From Aptenodytes patagonicus (Eukaryota; Chordata; Aves; Sphenisciformes; Spheniscidae): a DNA stretch of 64,000 nucleotides. The notes under the pieces are model-generated. The model had not been told where the DNA came from. It saw only the letters and a list, made by a program, of their open reading frames with translations, and made no database searches. The DNA is taken from positions 8,439,501 through 8,503,500 of the forward strand of contig NC_134963.1 in NCBI RefSeq assembly GCF_965638725.1, in the 5' to 3' direction. The position numbers were made by a program, and so were the translations under genes. Shown here one piece after another: positions 28,375 to 62,047 of this stretch. The stretch's first letter is position 1; each line of letters opens with the position of its first letter.

Positions 28375-48735
<20,361 letters not shown>

Positions 48736-51039
48736 TTGCCATGGCCCCGGACTCTGCAATGGGCGCTCTCAGAGCTGCTGACTGCTGCTGGAGGTGGAGG
48801 CCTTCATGCACAGAGGATGGATCAGCTCCATGGGAGCTGACTGCTCACTCGAGGGCTGGAGAGATGCAGCTGATAATAGAGGTTTACAGGGAAGAGCTTC
48901 TGGGCTAGACAGGGCTGGCTCTTCTTAGGCACTTCTCCAGGATGAAGGCGGTGATGGGCCTGACCCAATACACTTCACTTGACACCCACGTAAATCGTCT
49001 TTAAAAGCAAACCCCGGGGGAGCATAAAAGGAACATTAAAAGTGCCAGTCAGATTTGTGACCGTAATACCCCCCAGCAGGCTGTGCAGTCTGGGCAGCTG
49101 CTGCTGTGGGAGTGTTTCTTTTTCCTTTCCCAGGAGATGGTCCAGTTTCTTAGTGGGTGGAAGTCAAGTCTGTGGGAAGCTGCACAAAGGCAGAAACATG
49201 ACAGAGCCCACAAGGAGACGAGCACGAGGCTGCAGCATTGGATGTGCCACAAATGAGCACTGTTTACTCAGGACAGGTACTGTGCGGGGGCTTCCTGACG
49301 CCCTTGCTCTGTGCAGGGCCCTTGCGTTTGTCTTGGAGAATGAACCACTGGCCCAGAGTCGAGAAGCAGCAGGTTAAACGCAAGCAGATGGACCCTGCCA
49401 TTCTCAGGAAGGCTTCAGAGTGCTATAGGTTAAGAGCTCAAGCAGCAGGCGTGGGGGTCAGCGTGCTGAGCCAGCTGTGCCTCTGCCAAGCTCTTGCCAG
49501 AGCCTGTGCTTTGGACGAAAGTGGTTGTTGTCTGAATTTGCTCAGGAGTAGAAAAGGTTTAATCTTATTTAGTTTCCAGAGGATAGGAGCTGGCACGCAG
49601 CTCGGGCAGCCCTCACTCCCCAGCACAGTGCTCAAGTGGGACAGGTGCCCCCTGTGCTTTCCGGAAGGGGAATGGGTTGAGCTGCCGAGAGCCCCTCTGG
49701 AAACCTCCGCTGGCAAAATTCCTCTTACTTGGATAGAAGTTTCACTTTGTTTGCAGGCTCTTTTGTTAGGGAGATGTGCTGTTTCGAACCAGGACTTGGT
49801 CTCTGCGTAACAGCCACATTTGCTTTGTTGCCAAACTATTTATTTTGGTTGCTTTGTCTCTTTCTGGCCTTATTTTTAACAGTTGATGTTTGCCTGTAGC
49901 AGGCAGCTTTTTCAGGTTGTTCTGAAAGGGAGGGCGTGAGTGGGGGGGTGTGCACGTGTGTGTGTGTTGGGAAGGTGTGGACCCTTCCTGCCATTTCTAA
50001 AGAAGTCCAGAGCCTGACTTGTAAAGTGTCTCTGCAGCTTCCCAGCCTTGGTCCCTCGTGCTGCTGCAAGTCCTGCCTCGGCCCAGGCCAGGTGAGAGGA
50101 GAGACTGCCGTCTCCTGGGCTGCTCTGTCCTTGCTGGGTTTCTGGCACGAAGGAAAGCCATGTATTCTCCTGTTCAGCACAGGATTAAAAACCAGTCACC
50201 TTCTCCCTTTCCCCTGTTGCCGCTCACTAATAAAACAAGCTCCCACAGAGGCTGCTAGTATCTCCCCTGGACTTCCTTTCCCCTCCTTACTTTCCTGTGG
50301 CGCTGGTGACCCTCACCCTGTGCTCTGGCCCCTCTGCACTGTATGGGCAGATCGGCTCGGAGCCTTGCTGCACAAGTCAGCTTGCAGCAGCCGCTCTGGT
50401 GCGAGGCTGCCATACCCTACCTCATCCTCTGGCTTGCCTTGGTCCACCTCGCGGGGATTCGCATCCCCAGGCGTGCTCAGCGTAGCACAGATCTCCGGAC
50501 GGAGAAGGCTCCCTGGGGTCTTTGGAAGACCCTCTTAACCACGATATGTTGCACATTTCAAACATGAGAAAATACTTGGCACCATTCAACCAAGAGTATG
50601 GAGATGGCCTTTGCTTCATCTTTCTCTTTTGTCGTCTTCAGCTGATTTTCAGAGAAGTAACCCTTTTTTTAGAACCAGTGCCTGGAAATGCACCTGGAAA
50701 ACAACGTCGGGATCCTTTTTCTATGTCAACTCAGTAATATTAAACAGGAGTGACTGGAAGTGTTAGTGAGGACAGGAATGTCTGCATTCAGAGGATTCAA
50801 GATACTGGACTAAGTGAGTCCAGCGAAATTAAAAATGATAGTAAATTTTTTTTTTTTCTTCACATAGAGCATTTCAGCGTTAATGAGTTGTTGACTGTGT
50901 AGTTGAGAGGTTTAGGCACTGACTTGTACCAATCATAGTTTAAAATATCACACAAGATCTCTTTTTCTCTTCTAGAAAAATGCAGTGTCTAAATAGAGCA
51001 CAACGATTGTTCAATGAAGTGAGTTGTTGAACACGGTGA

Positions 51040-51045
51040 AATAAA
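51040..51045 (+). terminator. Candidate polyadenylation signal, UBE3B
   Basis: AATAAA followed within about 12 bp by a T-rich tract (CCCCTTTTTTCC), a good cleavage context. Confidence 0.4.
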
Positions 51046-51471
51046 ATCTTTGCTCCCCTTTTTTCCTTCATTCCTCAGGAGTACAATTCCTAGAAAAGAT
51101 CTTAACGCAGACTTAGCTAGGTCCCTCCAAACCTGGAAATATTGCACTATGAGACACTACATCCAATTTTGTAGCTAGCGTATAAAACGTGGTTGTCTAG
51201 TAAATGCCCTGGTGGCTGTGTGCGCAACAATAATATTGCTCGTCAGTAGCTGATTTCTGTATGACTGGGAGGCTTTAATATATTTTTACCTGAGCAGAAG
51301 GCTGCGAATGTGTATCGGTCCCTGCCTGCACTGCTGTATTCTGCGTGGGTGTTCTTTGTCGGGCAGGGATGGTTTTGCCATGGGAGATTAATGACTATTT
51401 TTTCTATAGAAGGCTCGCTGCTGTGGAGACCTTGGTTATATCCCTTGTATCAGAAATGCAGGGAAGAGAAA

Positions 51472-51477
51472 AATAAA
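51472..51477 (+). terminator. Alternative polyadenylation signal, UBE3B
   Basis: A second plus-strand AATAAA lies 430 bp further on, in an A-rich context. After it the sequence becomes GC-rich and repeat-free. Confidence 0.35.
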
Positions 51478-51490
51478 CCTGGTATGAGTA

Positions 51491-54240
51491 AGACGATTGG
51501 ATGTCTGCTTTTCCTTTCCCTGGGTGTAATGCTCCTGCTCAGAGCACAGGGCAGAGGGGAGAGCAGAGCTTTGGGGCGCTGGTACCTCTGCCAGGAGGCT
51601 GCGAGGCAGGGGATGGAGGCTGCTGGTCCCTTGGAAATCCCCTTTGTCAGGCTGGTTCCTGGTGCGTGTGCTCAGGTGTCCCTGAGAAATGGACTCCATG
51701 GGGCGCTACTGATGGTGATATGAGTGCCTCTGAGCCCGAAGGGACCTGGCAGGGTGGTTTGAAGCAGGATTTGTTCTTGTGTCTTGGAATATGCTTGGAG
51801 AAGTGCTACTTGGTCCTGCAGGGTGCTGTGACTTCAGTCGTTGGTACCTTCATGAGAGCATAGGTGCTCCTTGGATGCAGGGGGTGGTGAGCCCAGCCCA
51901 GCGCAGGGGCTGGACTTAGCAGTGCTCTCTGCACGAGTCTGGCCAGCTGGGAACGGTGGCTGGGGCCACTGGTGGAAAGGAAACCGGACTGGAAAGCCAG
52001 GCAAGATCCCCCAGCGCGGGAGAGCGGGGCAGTGCGTGTCCCTGTGCGCTCAGTGCAGATGCCCCATTGAGTGAGTGAGGAGCTCTGCTGCGGGCAGAAG
52101 CTGGAGGCTGATGGCAAAGCTGTCTGCCTCCCAGAGGCTCTGCTGCAAGAGCCAGGACCGGGTTTGGGACGGCCAGCGGGGCCAACTCTGGATCTTTGCA
52201 CCAAGGAATCTGACACCTCTTGGTTTGGAGAGGGAGAAGAGTCGTAGGGAGATGTGGGTTTGTGGGGCAAGGCTGCACTTTGTATTTTGGAAGCTGCCCT
52301 AATGACCAGGTACTGGAGCCAACGTGGGGTTTGTTGTTAGTATTATTATAATATAGGCGTCATGTTTTCCCCTTGCCTGGCTCTGGGAGCATCCTTGTAG
52401 GAATGAGGAGCTGTGCCTGCTGCTCCAGCTTCCCCCCCTGCCGAGTTCAGGTTTGGTGCATGACAACGTAGCCCTTCGCTGACCGGCTCCCCCAGCTTCG
52501 GAGCCACACTGCAGCCCTCCCTGTCCGATCTCGCCGTGCCGATGGTGCACACTCACCCCGGGAGCACAGTGCTCGGGGCCAGCCCCGTGGGTGCTTGGGC
52601 ATCGCGGGGGAGAGGGAGCTTGATGGGAACGAGGGAGAGGGCTCCCAGTCAGTGTGCAAGTGCCATTGTTTTGACACGGAGGCATATGGCGCCATCAGAA
52701 ACAGCAAAAAGAAACCCCGCAGCAGATGCTGTCAAGGCAGAAAGCTGGCAGCAAACAGCCAGGCCTGCAAAATGCCTGCCTCGCCGTCACCGCGTGGTGG
52801 GCCAGAGCAGCGCAGTCTTGCCAGGGCTGGCTCTGCGCACGCCACGGCACCTCGGGGCTGACCGAAGGTGAAGTCTGACCGTGGCTGAGGCACTTGGACC
52901 ACGCACACGCTGGGCACTGCTGGCTGCGGAGCTGGGAGGGATCGCCGGAGGCTGGTGCTCCCTCAGCGGCGGTGCCGGCAGGGAGCGGTGCTGGGGTGTC
53001 CCAACTGTGGCTGCTGCCATGCGGGCAGGCCCTGGCCGGGGGCGCGCCACCGCTGCTGCAGTGCAGGCACAGGCACGTTTTGGGAGCAGACAGCTCTTCT
53101 CGCTGCTCCTCCTCTGCTCCTACGCTGTCCCAAGGCTCTGACTCACGCCACAGACTGGTATTCTCTCCATTCGATACCACTGTTTTGCACAACCTGTTGG
53201 CCCGTGCTCCGTGCCGGGGCTGGTTGCAGGTTCGGACAGAGAGGGAGGAGGGTATGCCAAGCTCCGGTCTCCACATCCCTGAGCAGAATGAGATAAGGTA
53301 TTCCTGCAGCTTACTTTTGTGTTTGCTCATGTTTACTGAGACACGCAGCAGCAGCTCCTGCAGCGCGTTAGTGACCCGCGTGGGTGATAGAGTGGTCAGA
53401 CCTACATGGCACTGGCTTGGCCCTGCCACCCACCACCTCCTGGGTGAGTGGTACTTACACTGGCTGTTCAGAAATGCGCTTTTGTGGCTGTTTCAAAGGT
53501 TAAGTTCTTTGTTACTGACCCTCTGCAGCTCCACCTTTACCCTGGGGTGGTTGGAGCACTAGCTATGGCACTCTACCTATCTGTGCACGCCCTACAGAGC
53601 AGCTGAAGCTGGTACAGGGCACAGAAGTGGGCACTTTCTGCCAGGTTGCAGCAGAGGTAGAGCTGAGGGACCAAGACAGCCCTTTCCTCAACACAAATGG
53701 GCTGAATCTGCTTCTGTCTGATGCAGGGACGGTGGCTCTTGCCCTGGGGCACCCTAACTGCACACCTGCCCTTTTCTAGCCAGGTCTTACCTTGCTGTAG
53801 CACGATCTGTTTGGGTGAGGAGGGTTTTTCTTTGACCCCTTCCAGGCAAAATGGGTATTTCAGGGGCCTGCAACTGCAGAGGACTTGATCTGATGGCAGA
53901 TGCGGTCCCTTCTGGTCCTCCAGCTTGAGAGGAGGAGTGCAGGACTGCTGCTGGCTCCCCATCGCCGGGGCTGTGCACCCCAAGACTTGCCCTTCAGCTG
54001 CAGCACCACGGCAAGCCCCGGGCTTGGGGCGGGGGGGCAGCGCATCTTGTCGAGGTGGGGGCACACAGGTACTAGTCCTTCCTTCTGTGCATTAGCAGAG
54101 GAAACGCTGCCTTGTGTAAATTTACGTATGACTTGGCAAAATATATGTTTGTGTCATTTCTGCAAGAGCAGCAGCCAGCTCTGCTGCTTACACATTGTGG
54201 TGGTAATAGAGGTGGTTGAGTTATAGTGAAACTTATTTCA
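51491..54240. other. GC-rich intergenic DNA, no gene recognised
   Basis: Between convergent UBE3B and MMAB. Open frames reach 222 codons on plus (52894-53562) and 244 on minus (52695-53429). They overlap each other, are rich in Ser, Pro, Cys and Ala, and show no known motif. I read them as chance products of GC content. Confidence 0.5.
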
Positions 54241-54248
54241 TTTTACAG

Positions 54249-54428
54249 CTCCTACAGCGTTAACAGATGTACAGGCGTCTGATCCAATCATGCAGCAAGA
54301 GATTTTGGGGCCAGTTCTTCCAGTTTTGACAGCGTGTAAGCTAGGAGCAGCCATACATTTTACAAACAAGAATAAACGACCCTTAGCAACATATGTCTGT
54401 GCTGGCAGCTCCAACGTAATCATAAATA
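54249..54428 (+). pseudogene. Isolated ALDH3-family aldehyde dehydrogenase exon, probably a relic
   Basis: Reading from the third base of this block gives an open frame of about 60 codons that matches one exon of class 3 aldehyde dehydrogenases. It starts PTALTDV (family: PTxLTDV), continues SDPIMQQEILGPVLP (family: SPVMQEEIFGPVLP), then AAIHFTNKNKRPLATYV (family: EAIxFINxREKPLALYV). A splice-acceptor-like TTCATTTTACAG precedes it exactly where I recall the family having an exon start, so it looks like genomic DNA and not a processed copy. Against function: the near-invariant Phe of E-I-F-G-P is Leu, a TAG follows a few codons after the match, the donor is doubtful (gtaatc at 54416), and I find no other ALDH3 exon nearby. 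No ALDH3 gene belongs to this conserved block. The homology is strong; the status as relic is inference. Confidence 0.72.
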
Positions 54429-55224
54429 AGGAACCCTGCTAGGCAGGAATGTATCTGGGCTCTGCATACGGTCAGTACGGACAAAGCATCTGCCTTCCTC
54501 CCATTATATTAATGAGGTGCAGGCACTGGAATCCCTATGCTGTACGGCTGGATTTGTTGGGTGGGGACAAAGGACTCGGAAAAACAAATGCTAACCCAGA
54601 GCAACGGAGCTTTATTTGTTTTAAAGCCTGCATTTCATTTTAGTGACACTTCACTCCTACCCCCTCTCCTGCCTGCTGTCTCGCCAGGCTCTCATGCATT
54701 ACTGCACGCTGCTCCGCGATCGTTAGCAGACACCAGCTCGGCCACGCTAGAACTTCTTCATGGAACTCGGTGCACAAGGTCCCTGCTTCAGCCCCAATGT
54801 CCCCCCACCCCTGGCCTCTGCTCCCAGCCCATTGCGGAGGGTGCACTGGGGCCCGAGGACCTGAGCGCTGCTGCAGCTCAATGGCCAGCAGTTCCCCCGT
54901 GTACCTTGGGGACAGCATTCAGGACAGAAAGGTCCCTTTTATACAGCCGAGTGCTGTACAACGAGGTGGTGAAGCAGAGGACAAACACGGCGCGCTGTGA
55001 ACTCTCAAAGGGCCAAGTGCGGCCCCTGCGGAGCTCTGCTTTGCTGAGCTGCAGCAGCCGGCGGGGCTGGGACCACGCTCAGCCTGATCTATGCTCAGTC
55101 CTAAATTCAAGCCCTGGCCCACTGTGCCTGCTTAACTGAAACAACAGGGTCACCCCAGACACCAGCCTCCCTCTGCTTCAGCCCCGCAGAAACAATTGCA
55201 CAGACATCTTTGGGTAGAAAGGGC

Positions 55225-55236
55225 GGGGGGGGGGGG
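55225..55236. repeat. Poly-G run
   Basis: Twelve consecutive G residues, at the border between GC-rich and AT-rich sequence. Confidence 0.85.
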
Positions 55237-56610
55237 AGCTGGAAGCTGAGTGCACCCTAATAAATTTAATCTCTATATCATGTTAAAGTGTAGCAGCTAA
55301 ATTTATTTCTCCTTGCAATCAAAACAATACTAGCTTTGGTCCCAAAACAGTAGTGAGATTTCTTCCCCCCAGCTGGAAAAAAAGAAAATACTATAAATCC
55401 ATCCCGGAGCTGATTTATATAGCATTCATGAAGAATTTATATTGCAAAGAATTTTATTCAATTAAACTTGAAAAGCCTCTAGATTCTTAAGGTTCAATAG
55501 TGATCACTGAGACAGAGCTATCATAAAACTGGATGGCCTGTCTGGAGCAGGCATTGAGAAAATGTCTGATGTGACATTGCAGCTGACGGTACAGTCCAAA
55601 TCAAGAGCATTTGTCATTGGGATGTGTTACAGGCTAAGGCTTGGAAAATTACTCTGTGAAAAATGTGCATTAACAATAGCCGTGAAATATCTGTTTAAAA
55701 AAAAAAAAAGGGTGAATAATGAGACAGCGGTGTCTATTAGTGCTGGGCATTCTTCACTCGGACCCCACTCCGATTAACAAGTTAACACAAAAGCCAGAGA
55801 GTTTTGGGAAGCAAGTTTAAGGTTGTTTCTACTTAAATAATTAAACAGAGGAAGCTGCATGACTGACTGAAAAGCTCCCACCACCAAAAGTGGCACCCTT
55901 AGTGCAGGACAAGCACCCTTGATGTGTAATCACCCCACCGCCCACAGGTTTCCATGATGCTCCTCCATACAAGGAGGGGAAGACTTAAACCACCGCATCT
56001 GACGTGTATTCTTCCCAACTATATTTCCAAGCTGTAAGTGGCTTGGACTTAGCTGTAAAACTGTAATTGTCTGTGTTCTGTATGCAGCGTGGGTAGCGAG
56101 GTGTTAACTCATTCGGCTGGCTGCAATGCACTTGTTTACACAGAGTATGGTTTTTTGGCAGTTTTCAGGCCATCAGGAAGCTGGAAGAGGATGCCTTCTC
56201 GGTTGAAGCACTGTGATCTGCTGTCGTGGCGTTTGCAGCCAGGTTCTCCAAGCTCTAGGACATGCTCTGGTCTACTCTGCTGAGGGCTCCGTGACAATGA
56301 CACTCCTGAGGTCAACGCGGACGTTAACGTGTGTGAGATACGAACCCCTTTACGTGTTAGCCTCTCTCTTCCCACTCTAGCCGGCAGCTGAGGTGGCGCC
56401 AGGCCCCTGCTACTCATCACAACCCCTTTATCTGCAAACTTACTGACTTGAGTGGCCCCCAGTAGGTAGATACTAGAGCTAAACAAGGGCTCTACTCCTT
56501 CAGCTGGTACCTGCAGCCAGAGGGGGATGCCGTGCCCAAACTCAGAGGGGTCTGTGCGCTCGGAGGGGCAGCTCCACGTGGAGTTAACCCCAGCTACTTA
56601 AACAGAGCTT

Positions 56611-56626
56611 AGAATCATAGAATCGT
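56611..56626 (-). repeat. Possible tiny CR1 LINE 3'-end remnant
   Basis: AGAATCATAGAATCGT is the reverse complement of the ATTCTATGATTCT-type repeat that ends avian CR1 elements. Only about 16 bp match and the adjoining sequence is not clearly CR1, so this is weak. Confidence 0.3.
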
Positions 56627-56894
56627 CTCGTCTGCACATGACCTGTAGGATTTGGCCCTTCCTCCTTTAATCCCTCTATCCTGCGTGAGCCCTGTTTCTG
56701 GCAGAGGATGCACTGCATTGCCAGCACGGAGACGTTCTTCACATGCATAAAGCGAGGCAGCCAGAGCCAAAGAATTCTTAGTGCATTCCTGAAATCTACA
56801 CAGCTCAGCTTCAGCCAGGGCTGATGGATTGAAAGGAACTTAAAAAAGAAAAGCGTGTTGGGCTCAGTACTGAAGTATGACAGTTAGGGGCCCT

Positions 56895-57381
56895 TTGGTA
56901 CAAGTAAATCACATTTATTATTTCAAAGCTTGTGGTCAGAGTTCCTGAATCTCTACACAGTTGCTGTTCTGTACGAGCATTATGACTTACAAAGAGAAGG
57001 TGATTGTTTTCTCTTCTTCATTCCTCAGAGTCCTGTCAAAGCCTTTCCACAGCACCTGCCACTGCCCAGGGAAATTAAGACATCTCTAGAAATCAGCTGT
57101 AGTTCTTTGAAGTCTCCTGCCTCAGCTCCAACCCGGGGCAAACAGTAACTCTGATGCCATCGCCCCCGTGTTACACAAGGGATATTTGCGCAAGGCCCAG
57201 TGAACACAACAGCTGTGTTCCTCACAGTATTTATGGACGAGGTCCTAGTTATTTAAGCTGGAAGTTCTCGGCAGCTCCCATTTCCAGTCCAGGCTTGTTC
57301 TCTTTCCCTTCCTTGATGGGGGAAAGCAGTCTCCTGGATTTAGCTTCCCATGATCAAGGAAACAAACATTCCAGCTCCCAG
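56895..57381 (-). other. MMAB: Inferred 3' UTR of MMAB
   Basis: About 490 bp run from the MMAB stop codon to just beyond the first good minus-strand polyadenylation signal. No other feature is seen. Confidence 0.5.
56914..56919 (-). terminator. Polyadenylation signal, MMAB
   Basis: TTTATT on plus is AATAAA on minus, about 460 bp after the MMAB stop codon. Confidence 0.5.
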
Positions 57382-60300
57382 TTATGGTTCAGGCTTTACA
57401 TATATTTTCTCTTCCTTCCCTTCCTTCATTGCAGCGTAACGTGCCAAAACGAAGAGATAGTCGCTCAGTCTGGAAACCAAGGGAAAAGCAGTGAAACCAC
57501 TTCTCACACCGGCTGTGTTTGTATCCAGCAATGCCCAGCTACACAGCAAAGCACGTTTGATTACAGCACAAGAACTGCAGGTAAAGGAAGGCAAAGAGAG
57601 ACCGCATGAGAAGCCATTTCCAAAATGGCCTTCAGTAAGGAAGTTAAGTGACTGGTCCCTCAGCACCCCAGCAGTGTCTGTAAACATACTTTGCAGCCTT
57701 GCAACAATACTTTTTAACAAGCTGCTTGTTGAAACGTCAAAGATCTTTTTCTAGAAGGGAAGCTTCTTGAGAGGTAAACCCCGCAGTTTTATCCCGAGAC
57801 TAAGGGAACACCACCAGGCACGCTTAGTAGTGCAGGGTAAGGGTTTGGGATTTTATTTTTTTTACCTGTTTAAGTATTTGGCCACATTTGGATCTGCTTC
57901 CCCTGCTTGTACTAAAGGAACCACGCTAGAACAAGAAAAGGAAACTTTTAGTGTATTTAACTTTCTCGCTCTGAATGCACAAATGGCTGCGATTTGCTGG
58001 AACACCAACCCTCACACCCCAACCTCACCCGGAGTCCCCATTCTAACTCCCCGCAGCACAGTGTGAACGCTGGTTACTTCCCCAAGAAGAATCTGTGGTG
58101 GCTACATAATGCAACTCATTTTTGTAGCTGTTCTGGAGGACTGCAGCTCCGCTCCTCTAAAGGCTACTCATCAGTGGGTATCACTGAACAATGGGAGCAG
58201 CTTGCAGGCGATTAATACCCTGAAGGATCGTTATCCCTTTCTGCAGGTAAACAGGGACCCTTCTTTTGTTGAGGGAAGAGAGCTGTTCCTTTCCTCCTGA
58301 CTGGTGTACAGCCCTCATTCTAGCTTTCTTTTGACAAGAAACCACTGACTGTGACGTTAGTTTTTCGAAGATCGCGCTGCTTCAGCGTATCTTGTCAGAG
58401 CAGCAATCCTCACAGCAGAGCGCATCCACAGAAACATCTTCCTGCACATCAGCAGCTTCAGTAAAGAACCCCCAGCAACTTCAAACTGCTGATGAGCAGG
58501 TTCAGGCTAACACAGGAGACTTTGCACAGAAGTGATTTACGTAACGAGCAGACAAGAGTTTTCTCCTTCAGACCTTACCAGGGGAGCTTTAGTCTCCAAT
58601 AGAGGAGTGGGACAAGGTAGGTGTGGGCAGTAACATCTTAAAGCTTCCCTGGATCTCGCACCTGCCAGTGCCCCAGCTTCCACGTGTGCTAGCCTACAAA
58701 ATACCAGATACGAGCTGAACACGTAGATGCATCTCAGCATAAACCTGTCTGTTCTTTCTGAAGTTCTTAGCTCGGATGACCCAGTTCAGGGGAGGGGAGA
58801 GAGACTTGCTTTTTGCTGACTGCACTCCTGGAATTTGACTAATACAAACACATGAAGTTTGACTCAAGCTTTAGCCGAGTGCAATACAGCTATGGTTGAT
58901 TGCTCTGACTGCAACGATTTGCTATCATTGCAGCATTCTGATCGCCTTTTATCAATTTTATTCCGTTACACTACAGCCAACACTCACCACCTTTCAGCTC
59001 TGCGGCAGACAGCTCGGGAAAAATGGAGAGCAGCGCTGCTTTTACCTCCTGACTGAAACAACAATGAAACAGCGCATCAATGTCTGCTAACAACAGATAT
59101 AGCCATCCACCTTATTGTATAACTGCAGCAAAGCTTATCACATCTCGCACACACATGCAACTGAATCCTACGTTATGGCTAGGCAACTGGGCAGAGATAT
59201 CTGAATGCAGTAGGACGTGGAAATTTAATTCAACTGGGTCCTTCTCTCTGCTTTTCTCTTGGTATTTGTCCATGCAAATAATGGCCTCACAACATGTTTT
59301 CCCACGGCAAGTAGTAGAGCAGATTTACCCTAACAAAGCAAGCCTCCTCCAGTCAGTGAGAGGCATAAGCAGTACCTACTGGCAAGATGAAAGCTCTGAG
59401 CGGAGGAAGCTGCTCTGAATAACTGTCAATCCACTGCTCCAGCTCCAGAACTGGCTTCTCACTGAAAGATGTTCGTTCTACAGAGGGAAAAGAAGAATCA
59501 GCTAAAAGAAATGCAGAATTGATTCAGTCTACAGATAGAGCTCTACTTTCATATTTCTTGGATCAGTAAGTCCTAAGCAAGCATCCCAAAAGAATCCTCC
59601 TGCTAGAGCAGGGGTGGCTCCCCATTCAGCAGCTGTGGCCGGGTGTCAGTGTTGGGGCAGCGCCCCAGGCCAGCTTACATCGCTTGAGTCACACACAGGC
59701 GGCAGCAGCTGCTTGTGGGACCGTGGGTGACTTCATTCAGCGCCAGACACACACTGCAGAGCAGCCCTTGGGCAGCTCTAACTACCACGTACCGGAACAG
59801 CCTCCCCAGCACCAGTCTAGAAGGAGAGCTGTGATTCAAGAACCGTTATCCCGGGAAAGGTACTGTGGGGCTTACTTAAGTGAGCCTCCCTGGCTGAGGA
59901 GAGAGGTGTCGCGATGTTGGAGCCCACATCCTGCAGCATACACTGGACCTAGATGTGGCAATCAGGACAAAAATAAGAAGCGCTTTCATTAACCAGGCTT
60001 TGATGCTCCGGTACAACTGCAGCAAGCTCTGGGAGGCGACAGCTGGTTGTGCTGATTAAAGAAGATCCTACCCTTGTTGTTCATCATCCCCCAGCCTGCT
60101 GGCAGGGGGGATCAGATAAGTGCTCCCTAATTGCTTTATGAGAAGCCAGATTAGCGCATGTACTTGTTTTCACTGGCACATTAAACCACCCTGGCTGACT
60201 TTGCAGAAAGCAGACTGGGGGGTGCTCACATAATCACTTTGCTGGTAGGACACCGAACCAGTAACCTCTGGAAGAAAGGCAGTGACAAACAGCTGCAGGC

Positions 60301-61751
60301 AGCACTGGCTTGATGTCACGTCCACTTCCAAGAGGGGCATCTCTCCACAGCCCAGGATACTTGAGAGGCAGTCTGGTAAAGCTTTTTAAAGTCTCTGATT
60401 AGCTCCTTCTGTGTTCTTGTGCACAGTGAAGCTAATTAGCGAAACTCACAGACTGCCATGGCAGGACCTGTCTCCCACCATCGTGCCCACGTGGTTACTT
60501 TACCCCGATTTCAAATCTGATGCTATGTGACAACAAGACCTGTGTCCACAACCGTGTACAGTAACAGGTCTGAATAAGTCTAGAGATATGTTTGTCTGCC
60601 CATAACTAATCACTTGATCTACCAGTTCCCTTCTTGGTTAAAGAAATCTATTTCTTTAGAGAGTAATCAAGGGCCAGAGTCTGAAGTATTTATTTATTTT
60701 AATACCAAATGTATTAAATTCCTGTGTGTCCGTGGGAGCACTGTGTCTAAAATTAAAGAGTTTAAGTTTCAATAGCACAGACGAAGTGACTGCACTGGGG
60801 GAGGATTAGCATTAATACTCACTTTGTGAAGTTGTTCAACAAATGTGTGGCCCTTTTCACTGCTAAATTCACCCGCAAGCCTAGGTTAAAAAAAACAAAA
60901 CAGCAGAGTTAGCTAGAAATGAAAAAATTACCACGATTGTGCATATGTGTTTTTCCGTATGAAAACCACAGGATTTGGACACTCCTGGCTGTTTGTCGGT
61001 GCAGCCCTCCGGAGAAGTTTGGTCCAGAGCGTATCCCCTTCCCTCCTGCTGGGTGGCGGGGCTGGGAGAGCGGTTCTTAACGGAAGAGGACGCCCCGAAG
61101 ACCCCCACAGAAGGGGGTTGGGACGGTGTCGCGAGGCCTTTGTGCAGGCGGAGGGCCTGGCTTCGGCCTGCCCGGGGCCAGAGCTCCCCGGGCTGGCGGC
61201 GAGTTCCCCGGAGAGCACGGCCACCCTGGCAGGACATGGCTGGGCCTCCGCGGCCCCTCCGCCCGGCAGCGGGAGGGGGTCCTGGGGCAGGGGGTTACCC
61301 GATGGCCGAGCTCAGTTCGTCGGTGGCTCCCAGGGCTTCGAAGATCCGGTCACCCTTCGGCCTCCGCTCCCCGGTGAAGGTGCTGGAGAAGCCTTTGGGA
61401 AAGGCCCGGGGGAGGCGCTCAGAGGCCGGGCCGGGCCCAGCGGAGCCGCGGGGGTCGGGCCGGGCTCTGCCCCGCGCTCCCTCGGTGCCGCCGCCCCCAG
61501 GCACTACCTGCGTCTCCCGTCCTCGTGTAGATCTTCGGGGCCCGGTCGCTGCGGGGGCCGCGGTCGGGGGGGCCGCCGTCGGGGCTGCGGAGGCACAGGC
61601 CGTGAGAGGGGGCGCCGGGCCCTGCCGGGCCCTACCCCCGGCCCCACCCCCGCGCTCACCTGCCCGCCCCGCTCCGCTGCCGCCGCCCCGCCGCCCCCAG
61701 CGGCCCCCGCAGGCCCCGGCCAGCCGCCGCCGCCGCCGCTCGCCGCAGCAT
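57382..61751 (-). CDS. MMAB: Corrinoid (cob(I)alamin) adenosyltransferase, mitochondrial, complete, 9 exons
   Basis: Transfers the adenosyl group of ATP to cob(I)alamin in mitochondria, making the cofactor of methylmalonyl-CoA mutase. Exons in transcript order: 61660-61751, 61508-61584, 61299-61392, 60823-60880, 59876-59948, 59380-59477, 58988-59052, 57866-57925, 57382-57469. They sum to 705 nt, or 234 aa (human 250 as I recall). The first 30 residues are Arg/Ala/Gly-rich without acidic residues, fitting a mitochondrial targeting peptide. Residues 51-69 are the PduO-type nucleotide loop [40 protein letters not shown] is encoded mainly by exon 6. The active-site helix [10 protein letters not shown] is residues 176-185. 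The tail [18 protein letters not shown] precedes a C-terminus about seven residues shorter than human. ATG 61749-61751 is the first in-frame ATG; only GTG lies upstream in frame. Exon 7 probably uses gtgagt, giving Cys186 where human has Arg. Confidence 0.95.
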
Positions 61752-62047
61752 CCCTCCCGGCCGCCGTAGCCGCCGGCCGCCGCCGCCCCCTGACCCTCCG
61801 CCGCCGCCGCCCCTCCCTTCGCCCACGCCCGCTGTCACCCCAGCGCCGCACCACTCCGCGCCGCCGCCTTCCGATTGGCCTTCCCGAAGTCCCGCCCCCG
61901 CGAGGATCCCGGCTATTGGTTTAAGAGCCGGGAGGGCGGGGCAGAGCGCGGCTCCTATTGGTGAGCGGCGCTGTCAGTCCGCGCGATTGGAGTTGAGCAG
62001 CTGAGGCGGCGGCGCGGGATTCCTCGGGCCGCGTCCTGCTGCGGGAG
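61752..62047. promoter_or_regulatory. Bidirectional promoter of MMAB and MVK with CCAAT boxes and an SRE-like site
   Basis: Only 296 bp separate the two start codons. Four inverted CCAAT boxes (ATTGG) lie at 61874-61878, 61915-61919, 61957-61961 and 61986-61990, a pattern typical of NF-Y. A GC box is at 61930-61942. GTCACCCCAG at 61834-61843 contains the core TCACCCCA of the LDL-receptor sterol element. In mammals the two genes are known to share an SREBP-2-responsive promoter, so the sites fit common sterol control. No TATA box is seen. Binding and start sites are inferred. Confidence 0.82.
61834..61843 (+). promoter_or_regulatory. Sterol regulatory element-like site
   Basis: Eight of ten bases match the classic ATCACCCCAC, including the whole TCACCCCA core. 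It lies about 30 bp from the nearest CCAAT box, the usual partner of SREBP sites. Confidence 0.55.

Follow-up and report, generated by a model that had tools for sequence, protein, structure and literature searches.

Between the genes UBE3B and MMAB of Aptenodytes patagonicus lies a short open frame that resembles an internal exon of the class 3 aldehyde dehydrogenases (ALDH3). It raises the question whether such a lone exon is the remnant of a vanished gene, a copy of a gene that exists elsewhere, a visible part of a gene whose other exons have become unrecognisable, or a piece that has been put to some use. The stretch of DNA that was analysed, here called the window, comprises 64,000 nucleotides (8.44-8.50 Mb of contig 15, in an assembly of 1.35 Gb). 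We think it probable that the frame represents a constrained single exon of an otherwise lost pseudo-ALDH3B gene, and one that has likely been reused.

The exon, its borders and its surroundings

The open frame extends from 54230 to 54442 on the forward strand and consists of 70 codons followed by the stop TAG at 54440-54442. Its codons step by three from 54230, and position 54249 sits in the middle of an alanine codon (54248-54250). A preliminary description of this DNA had correctly reported an open frame but had placed its start at 54249, which is offset and leads into stops when reading begins there. The motifs named in that description, PTALTDV, MQQEILGPVLP and NKRPLATYV, are all present. 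The translated frame matches ALDH3A1 in the PDB with an E value of 9.7e-13 (residues 5 to 64 aligned), ALDH3A2 in the PDB with 9.2e-11 and the Pfam family Aldedh (PF00171) with 3.7e-9. When an ALDH3 profile was run against the 2679 stop-to-stop frames of at least 15 aa in the window, this frame scored 2e-19 and the next best 1.4. The match is far beyond chance, and through this significant protein similarity the bird exon is a member of the ALDH3 family by descent. Openness alone is unremarkable, with 55 frames of at least 70 aa within 48736-57380. The antisense strand across the exon is also open, over 66 codons (54238-54438, reverse strand). A working aldehyde dehydrogenase possesses the complete fold together with the catalytic Cys, Glu and Asn; here, only 56 codons of a protein that otherwise measures about 450-500 aa are present, and no other exon was found in the window.

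The ALDH3 core of the exon is 167 nt long (54249-54415, forward strand), is entered in codon phase 1 and left in phase 0, and is delimited by protein, profile and border evidence. Mapped on human ALDH3A2, for which a sequence was used that agrees with 4qgk over residues 1-460, the core starts at base 2 of codon 314 and ends with codon 369 (c.941-1107). We take human exon 7 to begin at c.941, which puts its 5' border at c.940/941. The 3' end of the core coincides with the 3' border of the same human exon (c.1107/1108). This border agrees with the location of the variant c.1108-1G>C in intron 7 of ALDH3A2, as given in PMC10550349, and the variant is also named in PMC12110948. According to PMC8445947, c.941-943 falls at A314-P315.

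A polypyrimidine tract and a splice acceptor AG precede the core at 54228-54248 (forward strand), as located by a weight matrix. Scored with an approximate weight matrix, the acceptor (...TTATTTCATTTTACAG followed by C, at 54248/54249) ranks within the top 61 of the 4917 AGs on the forward strand of the window and within the top 12 of 674 in its intergenic part, which bears out the earlier claim of an acceptor at the exon start. The donor at 54415/54416 is weak by the same approximate matrix, with 624 of 3679 GTs scoring equally well or better. Behind this border, where the weak donor GTAATC begins at 54416, the sequence continues in frame (VIINKEPC) to the stop TAG (54416-54442, forward strand). 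Homology to ALDH3 ends no more than two residues from either exon border, and replacing stops by X does not carry it further. A retrocopy (processed pseudogene) was therefore rejected, because the homology does not cross these borders.

Upstream of the exon, a HECT C-terminus ends at 48523-48735 on the forward strand (Pfam HECT 4.1e-17; stop at 48735). Downstream, exons of a cobalamin adenosyltransferase gene occupy 57385-61834 on the opposite strand (Pfam Cob_adeno_trans, 4e-7 at 59356-59523 and 2e-4, which is below the cut-off, at 61298-61834). We take these neighbours to be UBE3B and MMAB, and the last MMAB exons presumably lie near 57385-58011, where the MMAB sequence places them and Pfam gives no match. 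A TTTATT at 54611 reads AATAAA on the reverse strand and could end a long 3' untranslated region of MMAB, about 170 nt beyond the stop of the exon. The HECT and Cob_adeno_trans neighbours, together with the PDB and Pfam matches given above, confirm what had been described as an orphan internal ALDH3 exon between UBE3B and MMAB. In the gnathostomes studied in PMC9664204, MMAB and MVK stay near TRPV4, and the relevant passage of that paper does not mention aldh.

A second ALDH3 exon was found nowhere in the 64 kb window by profile, glued-frame and tblastn scans, which gave chance-like scores. The best extra tblastn scores in the window are 0.023 at 52904-52830 and 0.044 at 54558-54800. A second profile, built from 14 fish proteins and one frog protein, scored the exon at 1.1e-18 and the next candidate in the window at 0.45, and within 48736-57380 the second-best profile score of 0.6 bits compares with 3.4 bits for a reversed-sequence control. 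In the 10 kb of the contig that follow the window, no ALDH3 exon was found either, and no score was better than 1.5. The absence of sister exons had been anticipated and holds for the window scans, including 48736-57380, and for these 10 kb. The preliminary description had raised a lineage-specific gene with other exons as an alternative, and the profile and tblastn scans lend no support to additional ALDH exons of such a gene in the window. A DNA query of 301 bases around the exon, in a search that skips common words, matched only the exon itself in the 1.35 Gb assembly.

A fish and frog clade as the probable closest relatives

Approximately 5.8 billion proteins were searched with the exon set into a full-length ALDH3A1 as the query, whereby 76 candidates were scored and 55 returned. 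These 55 full-length matches are mammalian ALDH3A1, many fish "ALDH3B1" and bacterial or unnamed proteins that mostly stem from metagenomes. No bird or reptile name is found among them, some rows being nameless. With a fish protein from Cottoperca (P0012) as the query, the best 120 of 7596 matches are from ray-finned fish, the last one listed being from the frog Ascaphus truei; there is no bird or reptile name among these best 120, and sauropsid members may stand further down. Among the matches listed, the frog protein (P0141) is closest to the bird exon with 36/60 identical residues. Both share DVQ-SDPIMQQEILGPVLP, AIHF and RPLA-YV, and the signature of the frog exon reads DVQxSDPIMQQEILGPVLP. 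The identity of the bird exon to human proteins is 28/60 for ALDH3A1, 28/60 for ALDH3B1 and 25/60 for ALDH3A2, and to other rows of the fish and frog clade it is 32/60 (gar), 30/60 (Polypterus) and 29/60 (sturgeon), with a median of 30/60 over 122 clade rows. A bacterial protein (P0023), also with 30/60, equals this median and lies above human ALDH3A1 and ALDH3B1. The identity margin in favour of the fish and frog clade is modest.

A tree of 22 rows puts the bird exon inside the fish and frog clade (100/100), with the frog as its neighbour (90/73) and human ALDH3B1 as the sister of the whole clade (97/95); the support of 100/100 is carried mainly by the full-length rows, and the exon fills 11% of the columns. 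An exon-only tree of 57 columns, to which the duck was added, unites the clade and the birds with 92/94, which falls below the starred level of the tree tool, and the birds and the frog with 92/77. Exon-only topology tests disfavour an origin from ALDH3A (birds placed with ALDH3A, p-AU 0.009) as well as one from ALDH3B1 (birds placed with ALDH3B1, p-AU 0.022), the alternatives having been picked after the first tree had been seen. As alternatives, the trees include three rows from human, one from a rodent and seven that are bacterial or unnamed, and not a full vertebrate set of ALDH3A2 and ALDH3B1. By its tree placement the bird exon belongs to the fish and frog pseudo-ALDH3B clade. This grouping disfavours a copy of one of the known genes ALDH3A and ALDH3B1, and the exon is probably no damaged version of either. 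The bird stem is the longest branch within the clade (0.47 in the exon-only tree), and of the 19 residues that are invariant in ten clade rows, 15 are kept in the bird exon and four are lost, including two acidic ones. The exon is not evolving like an intact ALDH.

For a closer look at the clade, 138 proteins were pooled from the listed matches of the exon and fish-protein searches, isoforms and partial models included, so that the numbers are not species counts. The catalytic Cys is kept in 16 of the 138, namely in six proteins of the mammalian ALDH3A1 type, one bacterial protein and nine without an organism name. Where the respective column is filled, the other 122 rows have Cys in 0/116, Glu in 0/118 and Asn in 0/119 cases. 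These clade proteins, from fish and one frog, are full-length with near 500 aa, are mostly labelled ALDH3B1 or plain aldehyde dehydrogenase, and end with C-x-x-x in 100 of 116 rows. Judged by these residues, the group looks like a pseudoenzyme clade. As Cys, Glu and Asn are absent from all filled clade rows, the lost bird gene probably encoded a pseudoenzyme, too, the residue loss itself being seen in the fish and frog rows; at the bird locus, the exons to which these residues belong were not found. These 122 rows of an ALDH3B-like pseudoenzyme clade are filed under the name of the active enzyme. Among the papers listed in a literature search, none dealt with this clade, which does not prove that there is none, and a pseudo-ALDH3B clade behind the ALDH3B1 label looks like a new point. 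The name ALDH3D1 was considered for the lost gene and dropped: no such usage was found in the literature searched, and the sole mention of ALDH3D there is unrelated.

The clade also bears on the Phe of the EIFGP motif, whose loss in the bird exon had been interpreted as a sign of damage. All 16 Cys-bearing rows have this Phe, as do 82 of 119 clade rows; the other 37 of these 119 rows of the nearest clade have another letter there, so that the loss of Phe is by itself no sign of damage. Leu occupies the position in 15 of the 119 clade rows, including those of the frog, Polypterus, gar and Cottoperca, and Phe-to-Leu was discarded as evidence of decay.

The exon in other birds and what may have preserved it

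A UniRef search with the exon gave three proteins among three candidates, from Otus sunia (50 aa), Cairina moschata (50 aa) and Bubo bubo (90 aa). The form predicted for Otus sunia and Cairina moschata corresponds to a frame of 50 codons from ATG to stop at 54290-54442 (forward strand), over which their identity to the window is 49/50 and 42/50, respectively. Both predictions share the ATG, the frame, the end and the non-ALDH tail (8/8 and 6/8 residues), and from the shared protein end in scops owl and duck we infer a shared stop. The duck differs from the window in 8/50 residues, 6/42 in the exon part and 2/8 in the tail, and the exchange of V for I at the first codon past the border implies that the GT donor is gone in the duck. 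In Bubo bubo (P0003), the exon is kept through YVC and the frame is then left, possibly as an artefact of the prediction, or else because the tail is broken there. The second exon of this prediction matches plain non-ALDH intergenic sequence in the window and was used solely as a flank control.

Two tests address constraint, and both are weakened by the fact that the bird rows were picked by similarity, which favours conserved ones. Bubo differs from the window in 1/37 residues of the exon, compared with 9/38 residues and a 4-residue gap in the flank (Fisher p 0.014). In neutral simulations that started from the window sequence, at least 42/50 identical residues were reached in 37% of the runs at 0.10 substitutions per site, in 4.9% at 0.15, in 0.3% at 0.20 and in 0/4000 at each of the rates from 0.25 to 0.40, and the frame and stop were kept in 27% of the runs at 0.20 substitutions per site. 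The neutral divergence between duck and owl is assumed to be roughly 0.3. With small samples, similarity-picked rows and this assumed neutral rate, change in the exon seems slower than neutral. The term "relic", used in the preliminary description, may undersell an exon whose frame and tail are common to duck and scops owl and which seems to be changing at a slower pace than the flank.

The ancestral gene would have been an old vertebrate relative of ALDH3B1 that mostly had a C-x-x-x end and lacked the catalytic Cys, Glu and Asn; it persists whole in ray-finned fish and in at least one frog. Among the ancestors of birds, all but this exon would have decayed beyond recognition, and the loss probably took place at the UBE3B-MMAB locus itself. 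The surviving exon would have kept its frame and its good acceptor, with a weak donor in the window and none at that place in the duck, and would read 8 codons beyond the old border to the stop common to the owl and duck predictions. Reuse may explain its preservation: it may be spliced at its acceptor, as a terminal exon or in the form of a small transcribed unit, or it may act at the level of DNA. The frame and acceptor are preserved, the stop is reached by read-through and change is slow, all of which speaks for a piece in use. The two forms of reuse seem about equally likely, and drift alone seems less so. More specifically, selection may have acted on the exon since before the split of duck and owl as a small coding unit, either a protein of 50 residues or an alternative last exon, with the ancestral acceptor and the read-through stop, a proposal that we regard as tentative and rather doubtful in this precise form. 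The tail of the Bubo prediction, the 30/60 identity of the bacterial protein and the Phe counts slightly weaken the case. An apparently constrained single exon in birds looks like a new point, relic and exapted exons being already known kinds.

Reuse at the DNA or RNA level only, in which the exon would be an enhancer, a splicing element or an untranslated element and the frame a by-product, is a sub-case of the reused exon and is possible without being the favoured form. It would fit with a duck tail that is conserved about like the exon (2/8 versus 6/42 changed) and with the loss of the two acidic clade-invariant residues, but it does not account for the frame and end that scops owl and duck have in common, and the Rfam scan of 48700-57400 gave 0 matches, although enhancers are outside the content of Rfam. 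Unlikely, in our opinion, is a purely neutral fossil of the lost gene that decays slowly and whose open frame in duck and owls is due to luck and ascertainment. Such a fossil would readily explain that one exon is left, that the duck donor is gone, that the Bubo prediction leaves the frame, that 4/19 clade-invariant residues are lost and that 27% of neutral runs keep frame and stop at 0.20 substitutions per site. However, the 42/50 of the duck is reached in 0.3% of the runs at this rate and in 0/4000 at each rate of at least 0.25, and the Bubo exon differs less than the Bubo flank.

A living lineage-specific gene, with other exons that are too diverged or not derived from ALDH, is improbable; the good acceptor and the ATG-to-stop frame common to owl and duck would suit it, but profile and tblastn scans turned up no second ALDH3 segment in the window, and the 10 kb that follow it gave none either. 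One could also think of an intact ALDH3 gene at another place in the bird genome from which one exon was copied segmentally. Such a segmental copy would account for an exon that stands alone between splice signals, without sisters in the window, but is highly improbable given that no bird or reptile name occurs among the 55 matches or the best 120 of 7596, that the 301-base query has one DNA match in the assembly and that the exon is not grouped with 3A or 3B1.

Relation to known systems

The surviving exon points to a vertebrate pseudoenzyme gene that is filed in databases as ALDH3B1 and was probably lost in birds. With an exon that seemingly outlives its gene, one can ask if a fragment may become independent, and the case also warns against reading decay into every change at a near-invariant residue. 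Among human ALDH proteins, a pseudoenzyme without catalytic residues is known in ALDH16A1, as described in PMC10650815. The fish and frog clade shares the lack of catalytic residues with it, but ALDH16A1 is assigned to another ALDH family in that paper, whereas the clade is ALDH3B-like. The pseudo-ALDH3B proteins of Ascaphus truei (P0141), gar (P0121) and Cottoperca (P0012) resemble the bird exon in the exon signature, in best identity and in tree placement; in contrast to the bird locus, at which one exon was found that reads on to a stop, they are full-length and mostly have the C-x-x-x end. Exon 7 of human ALDH3A2 has the same 3' border as the bird exon and presumably the same 5' border and length, but it is identical at only 25/60 residues and belongs to an active enzyme. 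The general setting is familiar from unitary pseudogenes and exapted exons, in which a gene is lost without a living copy and one piece is retained. Compared with these, no other exon of the gene is recognisable at the bird locus, while the one that is left looks constrained.
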